DNA from: Burkholderiaceae bacterium
Lineage (GTDB): Bacteria; Pseudomonadota; Gammaproteobacteria; Burkholderiales; Burkholderiaceae
Length of the DNA stretch: 16,497 bases
Reading direction: 5' to 3'
NCBI GenBank assembly: GCA_947461335.1
Contig: CANHLB010000015.1
Location: 1-16,497 of the forward strand
Part shown: positions 3,139 through 16,497 of the stretch, one piece after another
Layout: every line of letters starts with the position of its first letter
Numbering within the stretch: the first letter of the stretch is position 1
Translations under genes and position numbers: made by a program
The notes under the pieces: model-generated
The model's input: only the letters and a program-made list of their open reading frames with translations
The model's database searches: none
Told to the model about the DNA's origin: nothing

Positions 3139-4782
3139 ATGTCTTTAACTTCTAATGTAATTTCAAAACGCGGCGCTGACGTAATAGTCGAGACTTTCAA
3201 GCTAGCGGGGGTAAAAACCATCTTCACGCTATCAGGCAATCACATCATGCCTATTTTTGATGCGCTAATTGATAGTGGTATTCGCTTAATTCATACTCGC
3301 CACGAGGCTGCTGCCGTTCATATGGCTGATGCTTACGCTCGCTTAACTGGAGAAGTCGGCATTGCTTTAGTTACTGGTGGGCCGGGACATGCAAATGCCA
3401 TCTCTGCTCTCTACACAGCAAAAATGGCAGAGTCGCCCGTCATATTAATTTCTGGACATGCTCCTTTGTCACAGTTAGGTAAGGGTGCTTTTCAAGAGAT
3501 GGAGCAAGCTGAATTAGCAAAGCCTATTGCAAAAGCTTCATGGCTTAGCAACTCGATCGATAGCCTTCCATTTGATTTTGCAAAGGCAGTAAGCATTGCT
3601 AAATCTGGGCGCCCTGGAGTGGTTCATCTCAGTATTCCAATAGACTTATTAGAAGCTCAATATCCTCCAACATTCAAGCTCCCTACTGAAAAAGATTTTC
3701 TCAGCGCTAAAGAAGCCTTACCTAAAGATATTATTCAGAACATATTACAAGTTCTGACGAGTGCTAAAAAACCTTTAATACTTACTGGCCCGCAAATGCA
3801 ATCTAAAAGTGGTCGATTGCAATTAACTCGTCTTGAAAAAGCATTGGGAATACCAGTCATTGGCATGGAAAGTCCACGAGGCATCCTAGATCCCTCTTTA
3901 GGCTCATTTGCGCAAGTCTTGGCACAAAGTGACTGCGTTTTACTCCTTGGAAAAAAGATCGATTTCACAGTCAAATTTGGTCAGTCGCCTGCTTTTTTAG
4001 ATACCTGCCAATTTTTGCAAATTGATCCTGATCCAGTAGAAATCAAAAAAGCAAAAGTCATGCTTGATCAGAAATTAGTACTAAGTTGTCAGGCTGAAGT
4101 AATACCTATGATAGAAGCTCTTATAGAAATGGGTAAAACAAATCATGCCTATGAAGATTGGTGTGCAATCGTTCATCAAGCGATTAAATATCGTCCCGAA
4201 TCTTGGTTAACAGCTTCAGCTTCACAGGGGTTTGTCCATCCTGCCAAAGCATTCGCACAAATTCAATCGGTTCTAGATTCTCATCCAGACTCAGTGTTGA
4301 TCTGTGATGGCGGAGAAATTGGCCAGTGGGCACAAGCATGCTTGCATGCACCCCACAGGATTATCAATGGAGTGGCTGGTGCAATTGGTGCAGGGATACC
4401 TTTTGCTGCGGCTGCCAGCCTAGTTAAAGATGGGGCACCTATTGTGGCGGTAATGGGTGATGGAAGTTTTGGCTTTCATTGTGCCGAAATAGATACTGCA
4501 GTGAGATACGACTTACCTTACTTACTAATCATCGGCAATGATGCGTGCTGGAATGCTGAGCATCAAATTCAATTAAGAGAGTATGGAAAAGATCGAGCGA
4601 CAGGATGCGATCTACTGCCCACTCGTTACGATGATGTAGCAAGAGGCTTTGGTGGTCATGGTGAATCTGTAAATGATCTTGCTAATCTTCTACCTGCCTG
4701 TCAGCGCGCCTTAGATAGTCAATTACCAGCTTGTATCAATATGATGATTCCAAGCTTAGCAGCACCTAATTTAAATCCTTAG
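3139..4782 (+). CDS. Thiamine-diphosphate-dependent lyase/decarboxylase, acetolactate synthase / 2-hydroxyacyl-CoA lyase superfamily
   Basis: 547 aa, full length for the family. Three domains are visible: the N-terminal pyrimidine-binding domain with the catalytic Glu56 in HTRHEAAAV and the GGPG turn (80-83); a central Rossmann-like domain (about 190-330); and the C-terminal pyrophosphate domain with GDGS (440-443) and the Mg-binding N468-D469 about 28 residues later. The GAFQEMEQ stretch (116-123) and the RYDDVARGFGGHG region (496-508) resemble 2-hydroxyacyl-CoA lyase and oxalyl-CoA decarboxylase more than biosynthetic acetolactate synthase. The family makes or breaks C-C bonds next to a carbonyl through a ThDP carbanion. 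A CoA-ester lyase role fits the neighbouring acyl-CoA ligase operon, but the genes are convergent and the substrate is not determined. It may instead be a benzoylformate-decarboxylase-like or sulfoacetaldehyde-acetyltransferase-like enzyme. The start lacks a good Shine-Dalgarno, and no in-frame alternative lies nearby. Confidence 0.85.
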   Translation: MSLTSNVISKRGADVIVETFKLAGVKTIFTLSGNHIMPIFDALIDSGIRLIHTRHEAAAVHMADAYARLTGEVGIALVTGGPGHANAISALYTAKMAESPVILISGHAPLSQLGKGAFQEMEQAELAKPIAKASWLSNSIDSLPFDFAKAVSIAKSGRPGVVHLSIPIDLLEAQYPPTFKLPTEKDFLSAKEALPKDIIQNILQVLTSAKKPLILTGPQMQSKSGRLQLTRLEKALGIPVIGMESPRGILDPSLGSFAQVLAQSDCVLLLGKKIDFTVKFGQSPAFLDTCQFLQIDPDPVEIKKAKVMLDQKLVLSCQAEVIPMIEALIEMGKTNHAYEDWCAIVHQAIKYRPESWLTASASQGFVHPAKAFAQIQSVLDSHPDSVLICDGGEIGQWAQACLHAPHRIINGVAGAIGAGIPFAAAASLVKDGAPIVAVMGDGSFGFHCAEIDTAVRYDLPYLLIIGNDACWNAEHQIQLREYGKDRATGCDLLPTRYDDVARGFGGHGESVNDLANLLPACQRALDSQLPACINMMIPSLAAPNLNP

Positions 4783-4783
4783 A

Positions 4784-4816
4784 GCAAAAGAAAAACCCCC
4801 CGCTAGTACGGGTGGG
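4784..4816 (-). terminator. Rho-independent terminator of the nine-gene operon
   Basis: Read on the minus strand, CCCACCCG (4816-4809), loop TACTAG (4808-4803) and CGGGGGG (4802-4796) form a GC-rich hairpin with one mismatch. It is followed directly by the U-tract TTTTTCTTTT (4795-4786). It lies about 70 bases past the stop of the last operon gene and just beyond the convergent ThDP-enzyme stop. Confidence 0.8.
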
Positions 4817-4883: not shown

Positions 4884-5684
4884 CTAAACTTTATAATTGA
4901 AATTAGGGTCCCGCTTCTCTTTTAAAGAAGCTAAGCCTTCTTTGACTTCCGGCCCATTAAAACTTAACAATTCCAAAGTTGCCGAGTTATCAAAGATTGG
5001 TCCAGCCATGCGAAACCAATTATTTAAAGCATATTTAGACCAGCGAATAGGTCGTTGGGCTCCCTTGGCTAATCTTGCAGCCACCTCTTCTGCCTTGGCT
5101 TGCAATTCTTCATCCGGTACGCACATAGAAACTAAACCAATACGTTCGGCCTCCTCACCCATCACCGGCTCGCAGGTTAATAAATAGTACTTTGCTTTAG
5201 CCATTCCACAAAGTAAAGGCCAAATCATTGCAGCATGATCACCCGCTGCCAAACCTAGACGCGTATGTCCATCAATCAATCTAGCAGATTTTGCAGCGAT
5301 TGAAATATCGGCCATTAGTGCCGTAGCTAATCCCGCGCCAACTGCTGGACCCTGTATAGCAGATACTATCGGCTTAGAGCAATTAATCATGTTGTAGCAA
5401 AGATCTCGAAATTCTCGTAAAGCTTCTGCCTGCATTTCATAGTCGTTGATAATCTTTTCAACCATACCAAAGTCACCGCCTGCACAGAACCCTTTCCCTG
5501 CTCCACAAATAATGGCTACATTAGTCTCTTTATCCTTATCAACATCAAGCCAAACTCTAGAGAGCTCTCCATGAGCCTCCCAAGGCAGCGAATTTAATTT
5601 CTCAGGCCTATTAATCGTAATTCTTAGGACCCTATCAGAAGGTCTATCAAATTTTAAGTATTGATAGTTTTCATATAATTTCAT
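4884..5684 (-). CDS. Divergent crotonase-superfamily protein (possible CoA-ester or beta-diketone C-C hydrolase)
   Basis: 266 aa, last gene of the operon. The crotonase fold is clear, with the oxyanion-hole segments CAGGDF (67-72) and GPAVGAGLA (112-120). An ungapped match to the other crotonase of this operon shows that both hydratase glutamates are replaced: Glu118 there is Ala120 here and Glu138 there is His140 here. His140 is followed nine residues later by Asp149 (GHTRLGLAAGDH), the spacing I recall for the His145/Asp154 pair of 6-oxocamphor hydrolase, a retro-Claisen enzyme of this superfamily. It is therefore unlikely to be a simple enoyl-CoA hydratase; isomerase, decarboxylase or C-C hydrolase activity is possible. 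The ATG at 5684 has GGAG six bases upstream. It lies 25 bases after the PrpD-like gene and before the operon terminator. Confidence 0.85.
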   Translation of the reverse strand: MKLYENYQYLKFDRPSDRVLRITINRPEKLNSLPWEAHGELSRVWLDVDKDKETNVAIICGAGKGFCAGGDFGMVEKIINDYEMQAEALREFRDLCYNMINCSKPIVSAIQGPAVGAGLATALMADISIAAKSARLIDGHTRLGLAAGDHAAMIWPLLCGMAKAKYYLLTCEPVMGEEAERIGLVSMCVPDEELQAKAEEVAARLAKGAQRPIRWSKYALNNWFRMAGPIFDNSATLELLSFNGPEVKEGLASLKEKRDPNFNYKV

Positions 5685-5709
5685 TTAGTTCTCCATCCTT
5701 ATAAAATAA

Positions 5710-7101
5710 TTACACTGTAGTTTGTGTTGAAGCTGTTATCTCTTTAATTGAAGATTTAGGCAAAAGCATGACCGAATCAATTATTTTTTTAATCGCTTGC
5801 TCACTGATTAGCTCGCTGCAATTATCTGAGAACTTCTCTAATAAAAGCTCCTGGGAAATCGGATTATCAGGGTGTCCAATATTAATATCTAAGCGCTCAG
5901 TGATGATCATTCCATCCTTTAACGTTACCAACAAATGCCCTGGAAATGTTTTTGGAAACATCGTTGTTGACGCATCAGCGCTTTCATAACTCACTAAATC
6001 TGAGATAGCTTCAATATCACTTCGATTAAGATTTTTTAAGACAAAAGTATTGTGATTTATTTTTTTATCTAACAACTTTGTAGCAAGTAAAAATGGCAGG
6101 CTAAATTTAGCTCCATACGTAGTCACTGGACGTAATTTTTCAGCAAATGGCTCGCAGATTAAGGCTTGCTCAATTTCTGGAACATAACACTTGATGGCAG
6201 AAATTGCTTCAACCTGAACCCCTTTTTTAAGTAAGTTGCCTATGCAATCAATAAAGGCATGCGCAAAGTGACAGCAAGGGTAGGGCTTAATAGAAATTCG
6301 TGTTGTTTCCCATGTTTCAAATAATGAGTTTGTTGCTAATGACAAATCACATTCATCAAAGATGCCATAGGTTTTAAAAATACCATCACGCCCTTCAAAT
6401 ACAGAATGCGGTCCTGTCATGCCGTTTTTCGCAAATCGGGTTGATAAAATACCCGAGAAAGCGCTCCAACCTGCGTGCATACTTTTAGATGATGAGCTAT
6501 TAGATAAGTATTCATTGATACCAGAAGTTTGACTTCCCGCTAAACCAAGTGCATTAATAATTTCATTTTCACTTAAATGAAGTAACTTTGAAGCTGCGGC
6601 AACTGCACCAAAAATCCCAGCGATAGAGGTTGTGTGAAAGCCTCTCTTATGGAAGGTTCCCCTGGACGCCAAACCAATTCGAGCAGAAACCTCCCAAGCA
6701 CCAATAAATGCTGTTAAAAGTTCTTCTCCAGATGAATTGAGCTCCTCACCCAAAGCAAGTACAACTGGCGTAATGATAGTGCTGCCATGAACAATGGAAT
6801 CGGTATGAGTATCATCAAAATCAAGGCAATGAGCAGCGATCCCGTTGGCTAAAGCAGCATATTCAGTTGAAAGTTTTACCTTGGAACCCAAAACTGGTAT
6901 GAATTGTGCGTTCTTATTTACCTCAAGCAAACCTTTTAAAGAATTGACTGCATTCTCATGTGTTCTTCCTCGAATTGCAACACCAATCGTATCTAAAATA
7001 TGGCGCTTAGCGCTGAGGATAACTTCATCTGGGATCTGCTGATAATTTAATTGAACTAAAAATTCAGCGTATTGTTCTGCAATTGTTTTCAAGGTATACA
7101 A
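5710..7101 (-). CDS. MmgE/PrpD family protein (2-methylcitrate dehydratase / cis-aconitate decarboxylase superfamily)
   Basis: 463 aa, normal family length. The family includes 2-methylcitrate dehydratase (PrpD), cis-aconitate decarboxylase and iminodisuccinate epimerase, all acting on short branched polycarboxylates without metal. Conserved marks are LDFDDTHTDSIVHG (93-106, with Asp96/97, Thr98, His105), His156 in GFHTTS, and Lys206 in SSKSMHAGWSAF. These appear to match the active-site Asp, Thr, two His and Lys known from human cis-aconitate decarboxylase, so the protein is probably catalytically competent. The start is inferred as TTG 7101: an in-frame TAA lies two codons upstream, the family N-terminus begins at this point, and no ATG occurs for about 200 codons. 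No Shine-Dalgarno is seen, so translation may depend on coupling to the hydratase gene 8 bases upstream. The substrate is unknown; no citrate synthase or PrpB neighbour points to methylcitrate. Confidence 0.85.
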   Translation of the reverse strand: MYTLKTIAEQYAEFLVQLNYQQIPDEVILSAKRHILDTIGVAIRGRTHENAVNSLKGLLEVNKNAQFIPVLGSKVKLSTEYAALANGIAAHCLDFDDTHTDSIVHGSTIITPVVLALGEELNSSGEELLTAFIGAWEVSARIGLASRGTFHKRGFHTTSIAGIFGAVAAASKLLHLSENEIINALGLAGSQTSGINEYLSNSSSSKSMHAGWSAFSGILSTRFAKNGMTGPHSVFEGRDGIFKTYGIFDECDLSLATNSLFETWETTRISIKPYPCCHFAHAFIDCIGNLLKKGVQVEAISAIKCYVPEIEQALICEPFAEKLRPVTTYGAKFSLPFLLATKLLDKKINHNTFVLKNLNRSDIEAISDLVSYESADASTTMFPKTFPGHLLVTLKDGMIITERLDINIGHPDNPISQELLLEKFSDNCSELISEQAIKKIIDSVMLLPKSSIKEITASTQTTV

Positions 7102-7109
7102 ATATTAAA

Positions 7110-7901
7110 TTATTTTCGAAAATTTGCCGGGCGCTTTTCTTTAAACGCAGCAATTCCTTCATCTCTTTCGTTACTTGCTAGAGCTAAAGCAAATAATTTA
7201 TTTTCATAATCAATTCCTGACTGCAAATCTAAGTCTAGACTCTTAAGAACTGCATCTCGTGCAAGCATCAAAGAAATGGGTCCTTTACTTTGCCATTTTT
7301 TACACAATGACTGCGCTACATCCATCAACTCTAATGGGGCACAAACTTTGTTTATTAAGCCGATTCGCAGAGCCTCATCTGCTGAAATAGGTTCACCTAG
7401 CGTAATTAATTCCATCGCCCTACCCAGGCCAACAAAACGAATTAATCTTTGGGTACCGCCGCTGCCAGGTATGACGCCTAAATTAATTTCAGGAAGCCCT
7501 AGGATTGCGTTATTAGAGGCAATTCGTAAAGTGCATGCTAAAGCTAGCTCTAGACCAGCGCCCAAACAATATCCATTAATGGCAGCAATAGTAGGGATCC
7601 GCATAGTTTCAATTAGACGGGGTAACTCACGTCGTAGCTGTGCTTCAATTGAAAGCTCTTTAGCAGGTGTTCTGGTAGCCACCTCATTGATATCAGCACC
7701 TGCTGAAAAAGATTTATCTCCATCCCCAGTAATAATGATGGCGTCAGCCTCATCAAGTGACTCTATTTTTTGCAAGCACGCCATTAATTCTTTTCGCAAC
7801 ACAATACTCATTGCATTTCTTTTTGGGGGATCAGTTAATGTAAGAATCGCAATTCGATCCTTAACTGAGTAAGCCAATAAAGAATTTGAGATATTAGACA
7901 T
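7110..7901 (-). CDS. Enoyl-CoA hydratase (crotonase)
   Basis: 263 aa from ATG 7901, chosen because GGAG lies six bases upstream. A GTG at 7913 would add four residues. It adds water across a 2-enoyl-CoA double bond to give 3-hydroxyacyl-CoA. Both catalytic glutamates are in place: Glu118 in GAGLELA and Glu138 in LPEINLG. The oxyanion-hole stretch SAGADI (66-71), the PGSGGTQRL loop (145-153) and the C-terminal FKEKRPANF are typical. The start overlaps the ligase stop by 8 bases, so the two are translationally coupled and should act in sequence, the ligase giving the CoA ester and this enzyme hydrating it after desaturation. The chain-length or ring preference cannot be read. Confidence 0.9.
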   Translation of the reverse strand: MSNISNSLLAYSVKDRIAILTLTDPPKRNAMSIVLRKELMACLQKIESLDEADAIIITGDGDKSFSAGADINEVATRTPAKELSIEAQLRRELPRLIETMRIPTIAAINGYCLGAGLELALACTLRIASNNAILGLPEINLGVIPGSGGTQRLIRFVGLGRAMELITLGEPISADEALRIGLINKVCAPLELMDVAQSLCKKWQSKGPISLMLARDAVLKSLDLDLQSGIDYENKLFALALASNERDEGIAAFKEKRPANFRK

Positions 7902-9444
7902 TCTGGACTCCACTTAAATCGGCTTTAACGGTTTTACCACCTGCATTTTTTGGTAAAAACTCTCGAAACTCAACATACCGCGGTTTTTTAAATGCTGCAA
8001 TACGCTTTTCACAAAAAGTCTGTATTTCACCTATTTCAATATTCACATGGCCGCGGGTTACTAAATAAGCCTTAACGGCTTGACCCCATTTGGGATCATC
8101 AACCCCCACTACTGCAGCATCGAGAATATTTGGATGGGTCATTAGAACTTGCTCAATTTCTGCAGGATAAATATTGATGCCACCACTAATAATGACATCA
8201 TTTAGTCTGCCTGCAAGATGTAAATATCTCTCTTCATCTAAAAAACCATAATCTCCAGTGTGGTACCAGCCCTCTGTGAAGGCCTCCACGGTCTCCTTTG
8301 GTCGATTCAGATACTCAGTCATAGCAGAAGGATTAATACACCAAACCTCGCCCACCTCTCCAGTAGGGCATTCCACACCGTGAATGTTCATTATTTTTAG
8401 TTTGACGCCACGAAATGCCTGACCAACTGATTCTGGCTTTCTTAATTGATCTTCAGGGCGGAGAACAGACATGCTATTGGATTCAGTAGATCCATAATAA
8501 TCAAATAATTGCTTGCTAATTTTGTCAAGCACTCGCATTTTTGTATTCATTGGAAGCGGCGACCCACATGTCACAACTCGCTTTAGGTTTGTAGAAGTTA
8601 AATCCTGCTGCTGCTTCTCTAATTCCTCCACTAGCATTGTGAGAATTGTAGGAACTGCCAAAGAAGATGTGATCCCTTCAGCGTTAACGATCTTTATAAA
8701 CTCATCTGCATCAAAATGAGGCATGATCCGAACAGTTGCGCCAACATAAAGATGCATTAATGTAAATGTTAAGCCCGCTGAATGTACTTGAGGCATAGTG
8801 CCCAAATAGATATCTTGACTATTTAAACCATATTGAATCGCTGCATTCAAAACCCAAAGCATTCTCGCTTTATGTGTTGCTAAAGCACCTTTTGGCTTTC
8901 CCGTTGTGCCAGAGGTAAACATCAAACTAAAGAATTGATTCTCGTTGCAAACTGGTATTTTTATTTTTTCTGCAGAAAGCAGTTTTTCTAGAGATATATT
9001 GCCATTAGTATCCTGACCATCAATTTCAATAACGATCGTTTTTTTATCAGCCCAGCCACTCAGAACTTCTTTTACATTTCTTGCTTGCTCGACATTGGTA
9101 AAAATGATTTTTGGCTTTGACTGCTGCAGTATTTCAGAAATTTCAACACTTTTGTAACGAGGATTGATTGGTGAAAAAATCGCCCCTGCACGAGCAACAC
9201 TTAATACGACTAAAACATACTCTATGCAGTTCGGTAGATAGGCACAGACGATATCGCCTGACTTAACTCCTAAAGCAATCAATGCGGAAGCTAAGATATC
9301 TACCTGATTATTCAACTCTCCATAAGTGATTGACTTTTTCCCATCGTAAAGCGCTATTTTTTTTGGTTCAAGTTGCGCATAATAATTTGGTACATTACCA
9401 ACTACTAAATCGGCATTAGAAAAGTTCAATTCAGGCGTTTGCAT
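7894..9444 (-). CDS. AMP-forming acyl-CoA ligase (ANL superfamily)
   Basis: 516 aa. It activates a carboxylic acid with ATP and CoA by way of an acyl-adenylate. Motifs in order are: P-loop FTSGTTGKPKG (176-186), the acyl-pocket segment around MPQVHSAGLT (217-226), YYGSTES (316-322), the hinge region YHTGDYGFLDE (394-404) with GRLNDVIISGG (412-422), and the C-terminal catalytic Lys504 in AGGKTVKADL. All are intact. The start is ATG 9444, which shares one base with the sdhB-like stop (TGATG); a TTG just upstream is less likely. It is similar in length and layout to long-chain, 4-coumarate-type and cyclohexanecarboxylate-type ligases, and sequence alone does not decide the acid. Being embedded in the operon makes it the likely entry point to the CoA-ester part of the pathway. 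Confidence 0.92.
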   Translation of the reverse strand: MQTPELNFSNADLVVGNVPNYYAQLEPKKIALYDGKKSITYGELNNQVDILASALIALGVKSGDIVCAYLPNCIEYVLVVLSVARAGAIFSPINPRYKSVEISEILQQSKPKIIFTNVEQARNVKEVLSGWADKKTIVIEIDGQDTNGNISLEKLLSAEKIKIPVCNENQFFSLMFTSGTTGKPKGALATHKARMLWVLNAAIQYGLNSQDIYLGTMPQVHSAGLTFTLMHLYVGATVRIMPHFDADEFIKIVNAEGITSSLAVPTILTMLVEELEKQQQDLTSTNLKRVVTCGSPLPMNTKMRVLDKISKQLFDYYGSTESNSMSVLRPEDQLRKPESVGQAFRGVKLKIMNIHGVECPTGEVGEVWCINPSAMTEYLNRPKETVEAFTEGWYHTGDYGFLDEERYLHLAGRLNDVIISGGINIYPAEIEQVLMTHPNILDAAVVGVDDPKWGQAVKAYLVTRGHVNIEIGEIQTFCEKRIAAFKKPRYVEFREFLPKNAGGKTVKADLSGVQNV

Positions 9445-10160
9445 CAATCAAAATCGCCCTTGCTAATTAAACCCTTTAATTTTTGCATACCTTCTTGCAG
9501 GGGAATATCCACCGGACATACGGTAGAGCAGCTCCCAAGCCCGTGACAGCGCAATATACCTGAATCAGTAGCAATGCCACGTAGTCGTTTTTTCCCTAGC
9601 GAGTCCCGCTCATCTAAAGCTAACATCAAGACTCTATTCATAGCTGAGGGACCTAAATACCCTTCTTTAGTAGCTGACCACTCGCATGCTGAAAAACAAG
9701 CTCCGCAAGTAATGCAGCCATTTTGGTCTTGAATTGATTTTCGAACTTTTTCCCCAGGCGGCATAATTCTAAGTGTTGTTCTATCAGGGTCTTTAGAAAC
9801 TAAAGCAGCGTGTGAGTTGATTAGAGTTTTAAAAAAGGGGTCCATATCACACATCACATCTCTTAATACTGGCAATGCGCGCATTGGCTCGACACGAACA
9901 ACATCAGATTGTAATGAGCCAATTGTTGTTTGACACGCTAAGCCCTCTTTGCCATTAACTACAACAGCGCACGACCCACACATACCAGCACGGCATGAAT
10001 AGCGAAAACCTAAAGATGGATCAATGTTGTGTCGGACATAAAGTAAAGCGTCTAATACTCGACTATTTTTACTAGGAACAGGAACCCTGAATGACACAAG
10101 ATCATCACCATCAGTTCTCGATACTTCTAAAGTAATTTCAAAGGACTCTACGTTTGACAT
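9444..10160 (-). CDS. SdhB/FrdB-like iron-sulfur subunit of a succinate-dehydrogenase-like complex
   Basis: 238 aa from ATG 10160, chosen because AAGGGA lies just upstream. A longer reading frame would overlap the preceding gene by 23 bases. It carries electrons from the flavoprotein to the membrane subunits. All cluster ligands are present: [2Fe-2S] C56, C61, C64 and C76; [4Fe-4S] C149, C152, C155 and C215; [3Fe-4S] C159, C205 and C211. The numbering is nearly that of E. coli SdhB. The usual Pro after the fourth Cys of the first ferredoxin-like motif is Glu160. The intact three-cluster wiring argues for a working quinone-linked enzyme. The gene follows the sdhD-like gene after 10 bases and overlaps the ligase gene by one base. 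Confidence 0.92.
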   Translation of the reverse strand: MSNVESFEITLEVSRTDGDDLVSFRVPVPSKNSRVLDALLYVRHNIDPSLGFRYSCRAGMCGSCAVVVNGKEGLACQTTIGSLQSDVVRVEPMRALPVLRDVMCDMDPFFKTLINSHAALVSKDPDRTTLRIMPPGEKVRKSIQDQNGCITCGACFSACEWSATKEGYLGPSAMNRVLMLALDERDSLGKKRLRGIATDSGILRCHGLGSCSTVCPVDIPLQEGMQKLKGLISKGDFD

Positions 10161-10170
10161 GTGGTTTCCC

Positions 10171-10530
10171 TTAAATGAAGGCGCGCAATGCAACTAAGCC
10201 ATACAAAATGGTTGAGGCGATAGCCACTAGAATTGTGTAAGTGATAAAACAAGCAAGGCGTGAAGAATTAATATAGTCAAGCAAAATACTACGAAATCCA
10301 AGATATCCGTGAATGGATACTGAGATTAGTAAAACTACATCAATAGCTAAGATGAATCCGCTTTTGATCCGATCAGATACCTCCAGGAAAGTAATCGCAT
10401 CTGAATTAAAAACTATAAACTGGAGAATCAAATGAATGGCAACTAAAACCATTACAACAATTGCTGAGCTGCGCTGCAGCCTCCACAATTTAAGATCCAA
10501 TGAATTACCACTTAGATAAGTTTGTTTCAT
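10171..10530 (-). CDS. SdhD-like membrane anchor subunit
   Basis: 119 aa with three predicted membrane helices at about residues 22-42, 58-80 and 92-116. His33 in the first helix and His74 in IHGYLGFRSILLDY in the second are the expected haem-b or quinone-pocket residues; the HGxxGxxxxxxDY pattern is typical of SdhD. It anchors the flavoprotein/iron-sulfur pair on the cytoplasmic face of the inner membrane and takes part in quinone reduction. The ATG overlaps the stop of the sdhC-like gene (ATGA), so the pair is translationally coupled. Sequence identity to named subunits is low in such proteins, so the call rests on topology, motif and position. Confidence 0.8.
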   Translation of the reverse strand: MKQTYLSGNSLDLKLWRLQRSSAIVVMVLVAIHLILQFIVFNSDAITFLEVSDRIKSGFILAIDVVLLISVSIHGYLGFRSILLDYINSSRLACFITYTILVAIASTILYGLVALRAFI

Positions 10531-10805
10531 TGGCTACCCTGCCTATTTTTGAACCAACCGCGCTCACTTGCAATAATATGGAGCCCATTTAATCCATGGC
10601 CCAAAACACAAATAACTACGATGGCTTCTACCAAATGGAATGCGTTGGATTTAAAAGCGTTCATCACCAAATCAAATACTTCTTGGCCAAAGAGTAAGGC
10701 GGTAGAAATTGAAAGTACGTGCAGTAAGAAATAAATTAACAAAATTAACCCACTCACCCGATGAAATAAGAATTTCCAATTTTTAGCTGAATAAATTCTC
10801 AACAT
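10527..10805 (-). CDS. Short SdhC-like cytochrome b subunit
   Basis: 92 aa. The N-terminal FHRVSGLILLIYFLLHVLS (14-32) matches the SdhC signature HRxTG followed by a helix with a His (His29). LGHGLNGLHII (68-78) matches the second-helix HxxNG/HxxxGIR motif, with His70 as candidate haem ligand. Only two membrane helices are visible (about 17-38 and 57-79). The chain ends shortly after the second motif, whereas SdhC subunits of this type usually run to about 105-130 residues with a third helix. No frameshift remnant is apparent before the next gene, which starts within the stop codon, so the short form may be natural. It starts one base after the sdhA-like stop. Confidence 0.8.
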   Translation of the reverse strand: MLRIYSAKNWKFLFHRVSGLILLIYFLLHVLSISTALLFGQEVFDLVMNAFKSNAFHLVEAIVVICVLGHGLNGLHIIASERGWFKNRQGSQ

Positions 10806-10806
10806 T

Positions 10807-12567
10807 TCAAACCTCTGACGTCATCTTGGAGTCACCTGCTAATTTAGAGATTCCTTTGGGAATAACAGTTTCACCGCGAAGTTGCTCTGGATTTCTCCTG
10901 GTGAATTTAACGGGCCTTTTTTCAGAATGAATTGCTCCATCACCATCTTTTTTAAGGTAAATGTTATAGAGATTTTCTTGGTCTATTTCAGGAAAATCTT
11001 CGCGATAGTGACTGCCTCTACTTTCAGTACGCAATGCAGCAGATTTTGATATTAATTTTGCAACTGCAATCAAATTTTCTAAATTCATTCGTTCATGCAA
11101 GGCACTGTTACCAGCTCTTTTTTCTGGAATTGAAATTCCTTTCAATTTTTCCTCATAGTCATCTAAACTTGCTTGCGCTATTTCAAGAGAATCTTTGCTA
11201 CGAATAATTCCAATTTGATCCCAGGCCATTACTCCCAATTCCTTACGCAAGTGAAAGGGATTTAAGCTGCCATTTGAAGGAGCTAATTTATTGAATATTT
11301 CCTCTAAATTGCCGAAACTCTGATTGCTTGGCACCGATTGGCTTTCTAAATCATTGACCATCGCCTCACCAGCAACACCACCAAACACAATCGACTCGGC
11401 AACCCCATTACCACCTAAACGGTTAGCACCATGAACCCCTCCAGCATCTTCTCCGGCAGCATATAAGCCTGGAATCGAAGTTCGACACAGAGGGTCAATG
11501 CGTATTCCACCCATCTGAAAGTGCGCTGTCGGAGTTACTTGTATGGGATCTTTTGCCATGTCATATCCAACAGATAAACACCTCTTGTACATGCCAGGAG
11601 AAGATTTGAGTAAGAATTCTTTTCCTAGATGCCTTACATCCAAAAAGACTCCGCCCTGAGGAGTGCCTCTCCCAGCTCGGATTTCCATATAGCTTGATCT
11701 AGAGACGCGATCTCTTGTGGAACGCTCCATCTTGGCGGGATCATAATTTTCCATAAAACGTTTGCCGTCTACATTTAAAAGGTGTCCGCCGGCCCCCCTT
11801 AGACCCTCTTCCAATACCGTACCGGTCATCACGGAATCTCCAGCAATTAATCCTGTTGGATGAAACTGCATCATTTCCATATCAATCATTTCGACACCAG
11901 CCCTAAAGCCCATCGCTAAGCCATCGCCACTTTTTTCTAGAGATGCTGGAGTGAACTTATATAGTGGGGCAGCTCCGCCTGTTGCGAGCAATACCGCTTT
12001 AGCTTTCATCTGGATTAATTCACCCGAATTAAAATCCATAAGAACGGCCCCAATAATCCGTTCCTGATTGGCATCAAACAATAAATCAATACCGCGTACT
12101 TCACTCATTTTTTTGATATCTCGAACCAACACTTGTTCAAGCAATCTATTCATTAGCTCAATGCCAGTGAGATCTCCGCTATGAACAGTTCGATTAAATG
12201 ATTGGCCTGCAAGCGCGCGCTGATGGATGCTGCCATCAGCGTTTCTATCAAAATAGCATCCAAACTTATTCTCTAATTCAATAATCCGGTTTGGAGCCTC
12301 CGTCACCAGGGTCCATGCAAGCTCTTGATCATTAATTAATCCACCGCCTCGTAAAGTGTCGTCATAATGCTTGTCAAACGAGTCTTCTGAATTAAGAACA
12401 ACGTTATATCCACCCTGCACCATTCGAGTACAACCACTTTTGCCAATCAAGCCTTTGCTCGCCAATACAATTTTTAAGTTAGGGTTGGCATCATGGGCTT
12501 TAATTGCCGCATAAAGGGCAGCACCCCCACCCCCTAAAATCAAAATGTCACAACTCTCTTCATGCAT
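10807..12567 (-). CDS. SdhA/FrdA-like flavoprotein of a succinate-dehydrogenase-like complex
   Basis: 586 aa, full length. The N-terminal FAD-binding motif is ILGGGGAALYAA (10-21). Dicarboxylate-site residues of the SdhA/FrdA family are conserved: His236 and Thr238 in QFHPTG, Arg257 in GLRGAGG, Arg285 in STRDRVSR, His349 in PTAHFQMGG and Arg383 in GANRLGGN. A substrate with a succinate/fumarate-like core is therefore likely. The residue that normally links FAD covalently (His in SHTxxAQGG) is Cys46 here, in SGCTRMVQGG, so FAD is probably non-covalent or bound through sulfur. That often goes with altered redox potential or substrate. The usual TCA operon order is sdhCDAB; here it is A-C-D-B between iclR and CoA-ester genes, which points to a dedicated catabolic paralogue. 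AAGGA lies 8 bases before the ATG, which overlaps the iclR stop by 8 bases. Confidence 0.9.
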   Translation of the reverse strand: MHEESCDILILGGGGAALYAAIKAHDANPNLKIVLASKGLIGKSGCTRMVQGGYNVVLNSEDSFDKHYDDTLRGGGLINDQELAWTLVTEAPNRIIELENKFGCYFDRNADGSIHQRALAGQSFNRTVHSGDLTGIELMNRLLEQVLVRDIKKMSEVRGIDLLFDANQERIIGAVLMDFNSGELIQMKAKAVLLATGGAAPLYKFTPASLEKSGDGLAMGFRAGVEMIDMEMMQFHPTGLIAGDSVMTGTVLEEGLRGAGGHLLNVDGKRFMENYDPAKMERSTRDRVSRSSYMEIRAGRGTPQGGVFLDVRHLGKEFLLKSSPGMYKRCLSVGYDMAKDPIQVTPTAHFQMGGIRIDPLCRTSIPGLYAAGEDAGGVHGANRLGGNGVAESIVFGGVAGEAMVNDLESQSVPSNQSFGNLEEIFNKLAPSNGSLNPFHLRKELGVMAWDQIGIIRSKDSLEIAQASLDDYEEKLKGISIPEKRAGNSALHERMNLENLIAVAKLISKSAALRTESRGSHYREDFPEIDQENLYNIYLKKDGDGAIHSEKRPVKFTRRNPEQLRGETVIPKGISKLAGDSKMTSEV

Positions 12568-13369
12568 GAGAGATTTCCTTTTTAATTAATGTAGTTGTAT
12601 AGCCCAGTAGATTTGAAATTTTATTTGCCGCATCTACTACAAGAGGAATGAATCGATCAATGAGGTCTGCATTCATGCGAAATTCTGGAATGGCAACACC
12701 ACATGAAGCAATTACCTTACCGGTATGATCTCGAATTGGTGCAGCGATACCGCCCATTTCAGGATGATTCTCAGCCAAGGTGACTGCAAAGCCGTTCACC
12801 CTAACTTCATCGAGTAATTTTTTTATCTTGTCAGGACTAGTAATCGTTTTATTCGTAAACGATTCAAGCTTGTCTGATAAAACTTTTTGGGCAACTGATT
12901 CATTAAAAGCAATAATGCTTCTTCCCGTTGCAGTACACCAGGAAGGATTGATTTGGCCAAGTCTAGTCTGCACACTAATAGATTTAGGACTTTCAACCTT
13001 CGAGACATATACAACGCCACCTGAGGGATCTAGTACTGCTAAATGAACAGTCTCGCCAGTTTCAGAGCCAAGTTTACTCAGGATCGGCCTACCTTTATCG
13101 GCAATATCCAAAGCCTGTACTGCTACTGAACCAATGCGCCAAGCTTTTAAAGTCAAAAAATAGTGTCCTGCTTCATCCTGTTTCACAAATCCGGTATTTA
13201 CAAGGGTTGAGACCATACGATGAACGGTGCCCTTTGGCCTTCCCGTAGCAGAAATAATTGAGCCTAAAGAGGATGGCACCCCTAATTGACTAATTGCCTC
13301 CAGCACCTCTAGGGTGCCAGCAGCTGAAGCTATCACTTGATTGCGCGTTAGATTATTTTTGTACTGCAT
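12560..13369 (-). CDS. IclR-family transcriptional regulator
   Basis: 269 aa, typical length. The N-terminal winged helix-turn-helix spans about residues 16-75 (recognition segment RPKGTVHRMVSTL, 44-56). The C-terminal IclR effector domain covers about 85-260, ending in the GxAxPI-like AAPIRDHTGKVIASCGVAIP (20 residues). Such regulators bind small aromatic or carboxylic acids and control the adjacent catabolic operon, often with autoregulation. It is the first gene of the nine-gene minus-strand operon and diverges from the FAD oxidoreductase, so it probably controls both directions from the gap between them. The start at ATG 13369 lacks a clear Shine-Dalgarno. No second domain or truncation is seen. 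Confidence 0.93.
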   Translation of the reverse strand: MQYKNNLTRNQVIASAAGTLEVLEAISQLGVPSSLGSIISATGRPKGTVHRMVSTLVNTGFVKQDEAGHYFLTLKAWRIGSVAVQALDIADKGRPILSKLGSETGETVHLAVLDPSGGVVYVSKVESPKSISVQTRLGQINPSWCTATGRSIIAFNESVAQKVLSDKLESFTNKTITSPDKIKKLLDEVRVNGFAVTLAENHPEMGGIAAPIRDHTGKVIASCGVAIPEFRMNADLIDRFIPLVVDAANKISNLLGYTTTLIKKEISHA

Positions 13370-13397: not shown

Positions 13398-13426
13398 ACT
13401 CTAAAACCTAATTAAATGCTTGTCAA
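13398..13426 (-). promoter_or_regulatory. Predicted sigma-70 promoter of the iclR operon
   Basis: On the minus strand a perfect -35, TTGACA (13426-13421), is followed after 17 bases by TAGAGT (13403-13398, 4 of 6 matches to TATAAT). Transcription would start near 13390, about 20 bases before the iclR ATG. The -35 overlaps that of the opposite promoter. Confidence 0.55.
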
Positions 13427-13448: not shown

Positions 13449-13511
13449 GGTTAATACTTAATTTAAATGTTCTGCTATGCGGAACTACTTATTACTCAAG
13501 GTTTTCTATTT

Positions 13512-15065
13512 ATGACAGTGTTTTCTGAGGACCAACCAGAGCCAGCCCATTTTGACGAAGTCATAGATGTGGCAATTGTGGGATATGGCTTTGCGGGCGG
13601 CATGACTGCAATTGCATCGGCCAAGGCTGGACGAAAGCCGATCATTTTTGAAAAGATGAGCATCCCAGGTGGCTTGTCAATTTGCTCGGGGGGCGGTTTT
13701 AGGATTGCGACTAATCAAGAAAAGGCCTATGAGTATCTCAAAGCAACTAATGCGCAAACAATTAATGACAGTCTATTAAGTCACTTTGCAGGCGAAATGG
13801 TTAAGCTTCCTTCACTGCTAAAAGAATTAGGTAAGGTAAATAATGCAAGTCTAAGCACACTAGATCGACCAGCAAATTATCCGCTACCGGGTTATGAAGC
13901 TTTTCAATTTATGGAATACGATTCCGTACCTGGATTTGATCAAAGCAAAGAGTTTCCGAGAGCAAAATCTCTCAAATCAGGCGCCAATGCTTTTAAAGTC
14001 ATCAATGACAATGTCAAAAATCTTGGTATTGAAGTACGTTATTCCAACGCTGTTCAAAGATTAATTACGGATAAGAATGGGGTCATCACTGGATTATTAG
14101 TTAAAGCCAATAATCAAATCCGAAGAATCGGTACGCGTTATGGAGTAGTTCTAGCTTGCGGAGGATTTGAGGCGGGTATTGAAATGCAGCGTCAATATTG
14201 GCAACTCCACCCTGTTTTGCCTGCTGCTACTCTTGGCAACACTGGAGATGGAATCAAAATGGCTCAAGCTTTAGGCGCAGATATTGGGCATATGTGGCAT
14301 TTCCATGGCAGCTATGGATTTCGTCATACGGACCCCAAGTACCCCTTTGGCATCAGGAGTAAAAAATTACCAGACTGGACAAGAGGCGTGATGTCCACAG
14401 ATGTTCGTATGTCTTGGATTCTGATCAATCAAGATGGCAAGCGCTTCATGAATGAATATGAGCCTTATGGACACGATACAGGTCATCGCTATATGGATCA
14501 ATATGAGGCCAGTAAAAATCGATTTCCAAACTTACCCGCCTTTATGTTATTTGATGAGGAAGGCCGGAAACTTTACCCAGTTGCAAAAGCTTTTATCAAT
14601 GATCCCGATATCGATGTATACGAATGGAGCTCTGATAATCTCAAAGAAGTTGATTTAGGTATCTTACAAAAAGCAAATTCACTTGAAGAGTTGGCAACCT
14701 TAACCAATGTGCCAATCGATACGCTTAAAAATACGATTCAAGAATGGAATTCTCAATGCAGCTCAAATGGAATCGATGAATTTGGTAGACCACCTCAAAC
14801 CAGAATACCCATCCACTCCGCTCCTTACTATTTCGGGGCGGTCTGGCCAGTGGTATCAAATACCCAGGGCGCCCTTATTCACAATACAAAACAACAAGTA
14901 TTAAATACATTTAATGAAGAGATCCCAAGACTCTATGTTGCTGGCGAAATAGGCTCAATATGGGGATTTTTATATCTTTCAGGTGGTAATTTGGCTGAAT
15001 GCATTATTAGCGGTCAAATTGCTGGAAATGAAGTTTCTCACTTAGAAGCATTGCAATTGCGTTAA
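13512..15065 (+). CDS. FAD-dependent oxidoreductase, fumarate-reductase/ketosteroid-dehydrogenase-like (FAD_binding_2)
   Basis: 517 aa from ATG 13512, which has CAAGG about ten bases upstream. An ATG at 13467 would add 15 residues without a ribosome site or motif. The N-terminal Rossmann motif is VGYGFAGG (23-30), followed by an acidic FEK at the end of the second strand. The C-terminal FAD cap is LYVAGEIGSIWGFLYLSGGN. The SdhA-type NRLGGN and HPTG substrate motifs are absent, so it is not a succinate or fumarate enzyme; the layout is closer to flavoproteins that insert or remove a double bond next to a carbonyl. There is no signal peptide, haem domain or membrane helix. It is divergent from the iclR operon and followed at 35 bases by a Bug receptor gene, so it probably acts early on the imported acid. 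The substrate is not known. Confidence 0.87.
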   Translation: MTVFSEDQPEPAHFDEVIDVAIVGYGFAGGMTAIASAKAGRKPIIFEKMSIPGGLSICSGGGFRIATNQEKAYEYLKATNAQTINDSLLSHFAGEMVKLPSLLKELGKVNNASLSTLDRPANYPLPGYEAFQFMEYDSVPGFDQSKEFPRAKSLKSGANAFKVINDNVKNLGIEVRYSNAVQRLITDKNGVITGLLVKANNQIRRIGTRYGVVLACGGFEAGIEMQRQYWQLHPVLPAATLGNTGDGIKMAQALGADIGHMWHFHGSYGFRHTDPKYPFGIRSKKLPDWTRGVMSTDVRMSWILINQDGKRFMNEYEPYGHDTGHRYMDQYEASKNRFPNLPAFMLFDEEGRKLYPVAKAFINDPDIDVYEWSSDNLKEVDLGILQKANSLEELATLTNVPIDTLKNTIQEWNSQCSSNGIDEFGRPPQTRIPIHSAPYYFGAVWPVVSNTQGALIHNTKQQVLNTFNEEIPRLYVAGEIGSIWGFLYLSGGNLAECIISGQIAGNEVSHLEALQLR

Positions 15066-15100: not shown

Positions 15101-16069
15101 ATGAAAAAAGTTATTTTGTCTGGTTTAGCGATACTCATTTCTTGGAATATCACACCCAGTTTTGCACAATCCACTTACCCCAATAAGCCTATCAAAATCA
15201 TTGTGCCTTATGGCTCAGGTGGAAGCACCGATGTTATAACGAGGATGATTGCCCAAAAATTGACAGAAAAAATGGGAGCCTCGATAGTAGTAGAAAATAA
15301 ACCAGGGGCTAATGCAATGATTGGAACTGAGTTTGTCGCAAACTCACCAAATGATGGATATACCCTCTTAGCTGCTAGTAGTGGCAATGCTGCAAACCCT
15401 GCCTTAATAGGCGCTAAAGCCCAAATTTTTCCTAGGGACTTTGCCCCCATAGTAGGATTGGCCTCCACTCCAAATGCAATTTCAGTCAATCCACAAACAC
15501 CTTATAAGTCGCTTCAAGATATCGTGAAGGCGTCGAAAAGCAATCCCGACTCATTAAGTTATGCTCACGCTGGGATTGGTTCACTACAACATATTGCTGG
15601 TGAGCAATTTAAATTTACAGCTAACATCAAAATGGTTGATGTTCCCTATAAAGGTGGTGGCCCTGCTGCTGCCGATGTTTTGGGAGGGCAAGTACCGGTT
15701 TTAGTCTCTGGACTCACTGCATCTATTGGCTTCATAAATGCTGGGCGCCTTCGCCCCTTAGCAGTGACTAGTGAAAAACGCTCCCCAAATTTGCCAAGCG
15801 TTCCCACAGTTTCTGAAAGTGGTTTCCCAGGATTTAATAGCGTCTTTTGGGTAGCACTATATGCACCCGCAGGCACTCCTGCAGCAATCATTCAGTCAAT
15901 CAATTCGGACGTCAATGAAATATTAAAGCGTCCTGAGGTAATTCAGCAACTATTTGTACAAGCTGCCGAGCCTTTTGGTGGTACTTCGCAATCTCTAGAA
16001 ACCTACGTTAAAAATGATATCCAAAATTTTGCAAAGGTAATTAAATCTACAAATATCAAGGCTGACTGA
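15101..16069 (+). CDS. Bug-type periplasmic receptor of a tripartite tricarboxylate transporter (TctC family)
   Basis: 322 aa. A Sec signal peptide (MKKVILSGLAILISW...) should be cut after SFA (residues 20-22). The mature protein begins with the Bug hallmark YPNKPIKIIVPYGSGGSTDV, followed by NKPGANAMIG and SPNDGYTLL. The ribosome site AGGAGGG (15088-15094) is the strongest in the window, as expected for an abundant binding protein. It is distinct from the receptor at 1999-2991 rather than a recent duplicate. It captures a carboxylate-like ligand for transport, but the TctA/TctB membrane partners are not in the window. Its position between the FAD oxidoreductase and soxC-like genes makes a shared substrate likely. 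Confidence 0.93.
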   Translation: MKKVILSGLAILISWNITPSFAQSTYPNKPIKIIVPYGSGGSTDVITRMIAQKLTEKMGASIVVENKPGANAMIGTEFVANSPNDGYTLLAASSGNAANPALIGAKAQIFPRDFAPIVGLASTPNAISVNPQTPYKSLQDIVKASKSNPDSLSYAHAGIGSLQHIAGEQFKFTANIKMVDVPYKGGGPAAADVLGGQVPVLVSGLTASIGFINAGRLRPLAVTSEKRSPNLPSVPTVSESGFPGFNSVFWVALYAPAGTPAAIIQSINSDVNEILKRPEVIQQLFVQAAEPFGGTSQSLETYVKNDIQNFAKVIKSTNIKAD

Positions 16070-16102: not shown

Positions 16103-16497
16103 ATGTCGAAAAAAAACCAAACAGTTACACGTCGTCAGTTCATGCAACGCTCCATTGTTGCATCAGCCAGTGTTGGGTCTTCACTTGCTGCCGGGATTGC
16201 GGTTGCAAGTCCGCCCAAAGATGCGGATTTCTTAACTATTGACCCATGGACAAAAACGCAGCGACAAAACTTTCCAAATCCAGACTACGGCATTCCCAGT
16301 TCTTATGAGAAGTTAGTTACTCGCCTGAAATACGCTAATGGCTCAAGGACGCCGCTACAAAAGTTGCACGGCATCATTACCCCAAATGGTCTCCATTTTG
16401 AAAGACACCATGGTGGTATTCCAGAAATTAATCCAGACCTACATCGTTTAGTGATTCATGGGCTAGTAGATGAGCCAATGATCTTTACTATGGACGA
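16103..16497 (+). CDS. soxC: SoxC-like sulfite dehydrogenase, molybdopterin subunit (partial, N-terminus only)
   Basis: 131 complete codons from ATG 16103 run to the right edge; TAAGGA lies 8 bases upstream. A twin-arginine signal (TRRQFMQ, residues 9-15) precedes a hydrophobic Ala/Ser/Gly-rich stretch, as in the exported SoxC/sulfite-oxidase family. The segment ITPNGLHFERHHGG (91-104), then LHRLVIHGLV, matches the start of the SoxC molybdopterin domain, where sulfite or a SoxY-bound sulfur is oxidised with electrons passed to a cytochrome c partner (SoxD type). The catalytic Cys and the rest of the domain lie outside the window, so sulfite dehydrogenase is the best guess and another exported molybdoenzyme of the family cannot be excluded. 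It is 33 bases from the Bug gene with no terminator between, so it is probably co-transcribed. Confidence 0.82.
   Translation, partial: MSKKNQTVTRRQFMQRSIVASASVGSSLAAGIAVASPPKDADFLTIDPWTKTQRQNFPNPDYGIPSSYEKLVTRLKYANGSRTPLQKLHGIITPNGLHFERHHGGIPEINPDLHRLVIHGLVDEPMIFTMD

Follow-up and report, generated by a model that had tools for sequence, protein, structure and literature searches.

The stretch analysed here (the window, 16,497 nucleotides) is the entire contig C15 of genome G000, a Burkholderiaceae assembly of 1.68 Mb that is 79% complete, and carries on its minus strand a nine-gene operon (4884-13369) in which a succinate dehydrogenase (SDH)-like complex is combined with genes of coenzyme A (CoA) ester metabolism. 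We see about an even chance that this operon degrades a racemic 2-substituted succinate. What speaks for such a role, as read from sequence, is the retention of the diacid-binding residues in the flavoprotein, a Leu at the position of FrdA Phe116, the linkage of the SdhA, SdhB, ligase and enoyl-CoA hydratase (ECH) genes, the presence of a canonical SDH elsewhere in the genome, and a mutase and TctABC extension in the operon of the nearest relative, L006 (L-numbers denote loci compared, G-numbers genomes and C-numbers contigs).

We infer the reactions, their direction and order, the coupling to quinone in the cell and the substrate as follows. PrpD would epimerise the free diacid. SdhA/B/C/D, with flavin adenine dinucleotide (FAD) held non-covalently, would turn the enantiomer it accepts into a substituted fumarate by dehydrogenation at C2-C3 and hand the electrons on to quinone by way of three Fe-S clusters and a b-heme anchor. 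An adenosine monophosphate (AMP)-forming ligase would make the CoA ester of the substituted fumarate, ECH would add water to it, and a second crotonase, which lacks the hydratase Glu residues, would perform a later step (C-C cleavage, decarboxylation or isomerisation). The route would in effect be a beta-oxidation with dehydrogenation ahead of CoA activation. In the case of sulfosuccinate, hydration at the sulfonated carbon would free sulfite, to be oxidised by a SoxC-like enzyme of the divergent operon. The complete scheme, that is, mineralisation of sulfosuccinate or of a comparable dicarboxylate, sulfonated or branched, by this inverted beta-oxidation, with epimerisation of the free acid by PrpD (and a B12 mutase for the skeleton in L006), an enlarged-pocket, non-covalent-FAD complex II homologue working with quinone, then activation, and crotonase hydration that releases sulfite to the SoxC-like enzyme, is tentative and stands well short of an even chance.

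Operon structure and the canonical SDH of the genome

All nine open reading frames (ORFs) are intact, and their family assignments are confirmed by Pfam/NCBIfam. In operon order they code for an IclR-family regulator (12560-13369; PF09339/PF01614), with a 64% ortholog immediately before SdhA in L006; the SdhA-like flavoprotein (10807-12567); an SdhC-like anchor of 92 amino acids (10527-10805; PF01127); an SdhD-like anchor (10171-10530; TIGR02968 above cut-off); an SdhB-like iron-sulfur protein (9444-10193, likely start 10160; TIGR00384 above cut-off); an AMP-forming acyl-CoA ligase (7894-9447; PF00501/PF13193; orthologs of 50-61% in L006-L008); ECH, a crotonase (7110-7913, likely start 7901; PF00378; orthologs of 61-67% in L006-L008); an MmgE/PrpD family protein, predicted to be a 2-substituted-succinate epimerase (5710-7101); and a PRK07327/EchA15-type crotonase (4884-5684), with an 84% ortholog in L006. 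The genes are tightly joined: IclR and SdhA overlap by 8 bases, SdhA and SdhC are 1 base apart, SdhC/SdhD and SdhB/ligase each overlap by 4, and the gaps are 8 bases for ECH/PrpD and 25 for PrpD/crotonase. With the inner ATG starts of SdhB (10160) and ECH (7901), SdhD and SdhB are separated by 10 bases and ligase and ECH overlap by 8, so that the nine joined genes with overlaps of 1-8 bases and gaps of at most 25 described in an earlier note on this DNA hold; the longest-ORF starts instead give overlaps of 23 and 20 bases, respectively.

Complex II is usually regarded as an enzyme of the tricarboxylic acid (TCA) cycle or of fumarate respiration. On contig C20 of the same genome we read ORFs for sdhC, sdhD, sdhA with a covalent-FAD motif (FAD_binding_2 match), sdhB, a small sdhE-like gene and gltA. 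Because this canonical sdhCDAB lies beside gltA, the window complex is not the TCA enzyme, and the search for a second SDH bears out the dedicated paralogue that the earlier note had proposed. Family membership is what speaks for a housekeeping TCA succinate dehydrogenase in the window; the canonical set, the 33% identity between the two SdhA proteins of the genome and the operon context leave that reading a negligible probability. As a back-up TCA enzyme the complex is likewise ruled out by the canonical genes.

Active site of the SdhA-like flavoprotein

SdhA proteins were compared in a first alignment of 23 rows and a later one of 29 (26 non-canonical, two canonical and one NadB). The His that binds FAD covalently is absent from the window SdhA, where GKSGCTRM replaces the RSHT motif, and is equally absent from all four window-type sequences; at the position of FrdA Thr244 stands a Glu. 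Both features are common to all 25 non-canonical rows tabulated and are also found in the fragment L054p. The positions aligned with FrdA His232, Glu245, Arg287, His355 and Arg390 are unchanged, which together with Thr244 we take to be the catalytic and dicarboxylate residues (five of six kept).

The residue aligned with FrdA chain residue 117, presumably the active-site pocket residue called Phe116 in the literature numbering, is Leu119. In the corresponding column of the 29-row alignment all four window-type sequences have Leu, and 24 of the other 25 rows have Phe, the NadB row having Glu. A literature search for the role of FrdA Phe116 found no source; if the role we assign to it is right, the Leu would free space over C2-C3 of the substrate. 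The residues at Leu119 and two after His355 distinguish the window type from its sister clade. The dicarboxylate-site His and Arg residues are thus kept, as the earlier note had it, but the site as a whole has lost the covalent-FAD His and carries Glu for Thr244 and Leu for Phe116.

Among NCBIfam models TfrA (NF004900) scores best for this protein; its 609.8 bits fall short of the cut-off of 718. This match, and the loss of the covalent-FAD His throughout the non-canonical SdhA proteins compared, a loss that favours reduction, would fit a complex that runs in reverse as a fumarate-analogue reductase, either as an electron sink or as a saturation step, in the manner of thiol:fumarate reductase and of fumarate reductase that lacks covalent FAD. 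We regard this direction as quite improbable, since the downstream ligase and true hydratase suit an unsaturated product, the heme and ubiquinone-site positions of SdhC and SdhD are those of canonical anchors, and the sister family adjoins fumarases and sulfite oxidation.

Iron-sulfur protein and membrane anchors

Alignment with the canonical SdhB of the genome places all ligands of the 2Fe-2S, 4Fe-4S and 3Fe-4S clusters in the window SdhB, in agreement with the earlier note. SdhC keeps the heme His and quinone-site Arg positions, and SdhD keeps the heme His, Asp and Tyr positions, the heme and quinone-site roles of which are our assumption. By a Kyte-Doolittle scan the window SdhC has two hydrophobic segments, versus three in L006, in the sister-type MPC6 and in the canonical SdhC. 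After its two hydrophobic segments the window SdhC stops, its gene overlapping that of SdhD in ATGA, and the L006 ortholog has a third segment. The complex that had been called complete therefore has its four subunits, but its SdhC is without the third helix.

CoA-ester genes and PrpD

ECH has a Glu at both catalytic positions, in the motifs GLELAL and LPEI, which we take to correspond to Glu144 and Glu164 of rat enoyl-CoA hydratase. The second crotonase has neither (motifs GLATAL and DGHT); it scores 418 bits with NF005595, which is PRK07327 (cut-off 292), and its nearest solved structure is EchA15.

The window PrpD matches PF03972 at 225.8 bits and PF19305 at 108.3 bits (gathering score 32.1), and the solved structures nearest to it are IDS-epimerase, Bacillus subtilis IRG1 and cis-aconitate decarboxylase. 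By our own mapping its catalytic residue set is kept, save for Asp in place of Glu91. A Proteus record (L066; H19), read by its ORFs, contains a PrpD 47% identical to that of the window (cluster at L066:2573-8377), next to a lyase of the aspartase/fumarase superfamily, a cystathionine-beta-lyase-like enzyme and a DcuC-like transporter. This neighbourhood looks like a succinate-adduct cluster, e.g., for S-succinylcysteine, which suggests once more a 2-substituted succinate. An Escherichia coli plasmid has a copy of the same cluster, annotated in several pieces (L025:5054-9303), and the PrpD homologues of both are 47-49% identical to that of the window. The plasmid PrpD matches H35, H21 and H19 are without annotated features in the stretch concerned; H32 (Variovorax) was uninformative. 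In the excerpt of PMC12290011, the characterised MmgE/PrpD members have substituted four-carbon 1,4-dicarboxylates as substrates, and the member from an itaconate cluster is a methylsuccinate isomerase, a type for which the published HMM has a threshold score of 550. Because characterised relatives act on such diacids, the Leu is clade specific and a related PrpD sits in a cluster resembling one for succinate adducts, a substituted succinate, as proposed in the earlier note, is the predicted substrate.

Distribution of the window-type operon

A scan of 84,980 species genomes with exact 8-residue patterns, a method of limited sensitivity, gave 30 matching stretches and from these four relatives. 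Their SdhA proteins are 71% (L006, from a metagenome-assembled genome [MAG] labelled Betaproteobacteria), 69% (L008, Acidobacteria), 65% (L007, Alphaproteobacteria) and 36% (L009, of canonical type) identical to that of the window. By maximum likelihood the window and the three MAGs L006, L007 and L008 form one clade with 100/100 support, apart from a fumarase-linked clade.

In the order, class and phylum samples (399, 369 and 398 genomes, which overlap; top three candidates per genome scored), no genome but that of the window was found at E <= 1e-184. The survey of Burkholderiales that the earlier note had suggested thus gives no sign of conservation: 1 of the 399 genomes sampled from the order has a match, the window's own. 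G1250, one of the window-type genomes, was the single match among 64 genomes of its family. More distant homologues are commoner in the genus, where 78 of 186 genomes, including that of the window, have an SdhA homologue at E <= 1e-120; apart from the window gene all of these matches are 50-59% identical. At E <= 1e-130, a phylum sample of 349 genomes contains 8 with any homologue, counting the window genome and one family member.

In all four window-type loci the genes for SdhA, SdhB, ligase and hydratase lie side by side, except that in the window and L006 those for the anchors separate SdhA from SdhB, so the claimed linkage stands. The anchors, IclR, PrpD and the second crotonase occur in two of the four, the window and L006. 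Occurrence of the sdh genes without ligase and crotonase, which by the earlier note would refute its reading, was not seen in the window clade; in the sister clade, though, such a complex goes with fumarases instead. L006 has the gene order of the window (IclR, SdhA, C, D, B, ligase, ECH, PrpD, PRK07327), with a binding-protein gene inserted before PrpD. L006 has an SsuA/NMT1-like binding protein that scores under the SsuA cut-off. Its operon runs on into glutamate-mutase-like MutE, MutS and MutL and then TctC, TctB, TctA and a HAD-like gene, the last four read from ORFs (L006:12964-15798 and L053:2422-7436). MutS is above its cut-off, and MutE is below that of NCBIfam (296.8 versus 390.1). 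In alignment this MutE keeps Arg100 and has Gln, Asp and Thr at Arg66, Arg149 and Glu171, presumably substrate residues of glutamate mutase; because of these replacements it is probably not a glutamate mutase.

Fumarase-linked relatives and sulfonate markers

SdhA homologues about 45-55% identical to that of the window are encoded, on plasmids as well as chromosomes, next to class I fumarase subunits. Their hosts are plasmids of Pseudomonas, Cupriavidus, Paracoccus, Sulfitobacter and Methylobacterium and also genomes of the window's family. The fumarase-linked loci are L003, L035, L041 and L061 (window's genus) and L028-L032, L034 and L036-L044; the archaeal L033 has no fumarase match, and neither has the window.

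Sulfonate and sulfite markers were tallied uniformly by tblastn with TauE, YeiH, SoxC, UxaA-type (Suy-like), SlcC-like and ComC-like queries, the fragment locus L062 being left out. Of the 22 loci that are not of the window type, all but L034, L054, L055 and L056 contain at least one marker (18 of 22), as does 1 of the 4 window-type loci, the window itself, by way of its SoxC-like start (Fisher 0.047, for loci that are non-independent, of unequal length, 3.8 to 21.9 kb, and in part near-duplicates). The strength of the markers is mixed: the L035 SoxC is above cut-off, YeiH, sulfolactate dehydrogenase and Suy-like proteins are below cut-off or assigned by relation only, and the SlcC and ComC markers belong to broad dehydrogenase families. 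L035 reads LysR, SdhB, D, C, fumarase alpha and beta, SdhA, TauE-like, Bug, SlcC-like, ComC-like, a Suy-like pair, GntR-like, YeiH and SoxC, a gene set suggesting that 3-sulfopropionate or a related sulfonate is converted all the way to sulfate. Genes for the breakdown of such a compound were not found in the literature searched.

A further member of the SdhA family is found in all four window-type genomes (G000 C119, G1250 C366 [partial], G1251 C95 and G1252 C153). The paralogue of G1252, a MAG labelled Acidobacteria, lies at L055:131-4332, outside both clades and beside a fumarase beta subunit; as read from ORFs, its SdhB frame is continuous with a Rieske-like stretch and is followed by a cytochrome b-like gene.

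The window operon may instead act on 3-sulfopropionate or another non-succinate sulfonate, with ligase and hydratase standing in for the fumarase of the sister pathway. Such a substrate would suit the marker-rich context of the sister family, the SoxC-like start in the window, the SsuA/NMT1-like protein of L006 and the presence of a second family member in every window-type genome versus 8 of 349 phylum genomes with any (G1252 lies outside that sample). According to the excerpt of PMC11489063, degradation of 3-sulfopropionate is unreported save for a thesis, in which it proceeds via sulfoacrylate and sulfolactate. We nevertheless rate it as rather improbable, since 3-sulfopropionate is achiral and needs no epimerase, Leu119 and the residue two after His355 are unlike those of the sister clade, and of the four co-occurring paralogue loci that of G000 (L003) has markers and L054, L055 and L056 have none.

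Divergent operon and choice of substrate

Divergently from iclR, on the plus strand, lies a possible partner operon. It starts with an FAD_binding_2 protein (13467-15065; PF00890), which is flavocytochrome c/urocanate-reductase-like, below the NCBIfam cut-offs listed for it, and a TctC-type solute receptor (15101-16069; PF03401). The gene of a SoxC-like sulfite dehydrogenase (16103-16495) begins 33 bases past that of the receptor, and the contig ends after its first 131 codons. This start is 59% identical to the SoxC of the sulfonate locus L035 and matches TIGR04555 at 112 bits (cut-off 420), the contig covering the first 126 of 408 model positions; its only solved relative is the sulfite dehydrogenase 2xts, and it has no Pfam match. 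It lends weight to the sulfur-bearing succinate listed among the options in the earlier note. That note had not recorded the SoxC-like start, and the loss of the flavin-linking residue, the truncated SdhC and the degenerate SdhB of relatives are likewise new here.

We place 2-sulfosuccinate first among the candidates, although on its own it is unlikely. It ranks higher because of the SoxC-like start in the window and the markers in relatives' loci, and it fits most threads: its chirality and its 2-substituent agree with the epimerase and the larger pocket, its sulfonate group with the sister family, and its capacity to yield sulfite with SoxC. Next comes, less probably again, a non-sulfonated methyl-branched dicarboxylate as a variety of the same scheme, e.g., methylsuccinate going through mesaconate and mesaconyl-CoA to a hydroxyacyl-CoA. 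The glutamate-mutase-like system of L006, of a kind that links straight-chain and methyl-branched acids, favours such an acid over sulfosuccinate, as does the fact that three of the four window-type loci have no marker, and one PrpD is the methylsuccinate isomerase mentioned above (PMC12290011, excerpt). Against it are the SoxC-like gene, the absence of CoA transferase, citramalyl-CoA lyase and acyl-CoA dehydrogenase of the itaconate cluster from the window ORFs scanned, and the failure to find MutE in G000, a genome 79% complete.

Evidence against the proposed function

Several observations weigh against the degradation of a 2-substituted succinate as set out above. A fumarate reductase without covalent FAD is hampered in succinate oxidation. 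The window SdhC, without its third helix, falls short of the three transmembrane helices per anchor that mark SDH anchors. L007 and L008, on contigs of 9.4-9.5 kb, have no ortholog of SdhC/D, PrpD or PRK07327, and their SdhB homologues (L007:4980-5708 and L008:1922-2614) keep the 2Fe-2S ligands and have lost the fourth 4Fe-4S Cys as well as 3Fe-4S ligands. Quinone coupling is therefore not universal in the clade, and the electron acceptor must differ in these two. The window contains no lyase or thiolase to finish the route, and its clade has no characterised member. The sulfosuccinate version is further weakened by the absence of a sulfite exporter from the window and of any sulfonate/sulfite marker from L006 (whole 21.9-kb contig), L007 and L008, and the SoxC at the contig end may be part of something else.

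The missing SdhC helix and the lost anchors and ligands of L007 and L008 could also mean that the complex is losing function, the flavoprotein being left with another electron acceptor or none. We think this improbable, since the remaining subunits are intact and free of stops, the ligands are present and the tight operon is kept.

Regulatory signals and flanking genes

The intrinsic terminator predicted in the earlier note was found as a hairpin followed by a T-run on the minus strand (4799-4812), about 70 bases beyond the last operon stop. The surrounding 100-nucleotide stretch folds at z = -3.6, though the pattern scan as a whole is at chance level (8 found versus 7.5 expected). Evidence for a sigma-70-like promoter upstream of iclR (13398-13426, minus strand, 10/12 by pattern scan) is weak, as such sites are no commoner in this region than in shuffles (18 versus 21.6). 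An Rfam search gave no match.

Outside the operon, the window also codes for a thiamine diphosphate (ThDP) enzyme (3139-4782), the nearest solved structure of which is the 2-hydroxyacyl-CoA lyase 7pt1, and for a TauD-family dioxygenase (920-1990). The pair recurs in two genomes of the genus (L059 and L060; 67-68% and 75-76%) without this operon, and in other genomes sister-type SDH loci have relatives of the ThDP enzyme close by; for these reasons both genes were set aside as pathway members. Among the eight ThDP-bearing genus genomes, seven have an SdhA homologue and the eighth a contig-end fragment (L062). An ORF on the minus strand that runs off the contig start (3-833) matches PDEase_I of Pfam at 34.5 bits.

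Comparison with known systems

In the literature searched, no paper describes an SDH-like complex encoded together with a ligase and crotonases, in keeping with the earlier remark that no characterised pathway with this gene set was recognised. The itaconate/methylsuccinate cluster in the excerpt of PMC12290011 resembles the window in having an MmgE/PrpD isomerase beside the dehydrogenation and hydration of a substituted succinate. There, a CoA transferase activates first and an acyl-CoA dehydrogenase acts on the CoA ester, whereas the window has the SDH-like complex and a ligase. MutE/MutS/MutL within the L006 operon resemble the glutamate (methylaspartate) mutase system, with different MutE substrate residues. 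Thiol:fumarate reductase provides the best-scoring model for SdhA, below cut-off, but the window has a separate SdhB and membrane anchors.

The fumarase-linked sister clade shares with the window the loss of the flavin-linking His, the same Glu and the same four subunits, at 45-50% SdhA identity in the 23-row alignment; it differs in having class I fumarase alpha and beta subunits and mostly sulfonate/sulfite genes, without the ligase/hydratase pairing, and in keeping Phe116. Complex II itself (SDH and fumarate reductase) has the same four-subunit layout, Fe-S ligands, dicarboxylate His and Arg residues, and heme and quinone-site positions. The window departs from it in the absent covalent-FAD His, Glu for Thr244, Leu for Phe116, a two-segment SdhC and an A-C-D-B gene order with CoA genes. 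If the complete scheme set out above is right, a complex II homologue would here commit the substrate to a xenobiotic or sulfonate pathway. Taken with the sister family, the window locus suggests that complex II homologues, changed at their flavin and substrate sites, have radiated into the catabolism of succinate analogues, candidate substrates being substituted succinates such as sulfosuccinate for the window type and 3-sulfopropionate or a related sulfonate for the sister clade.

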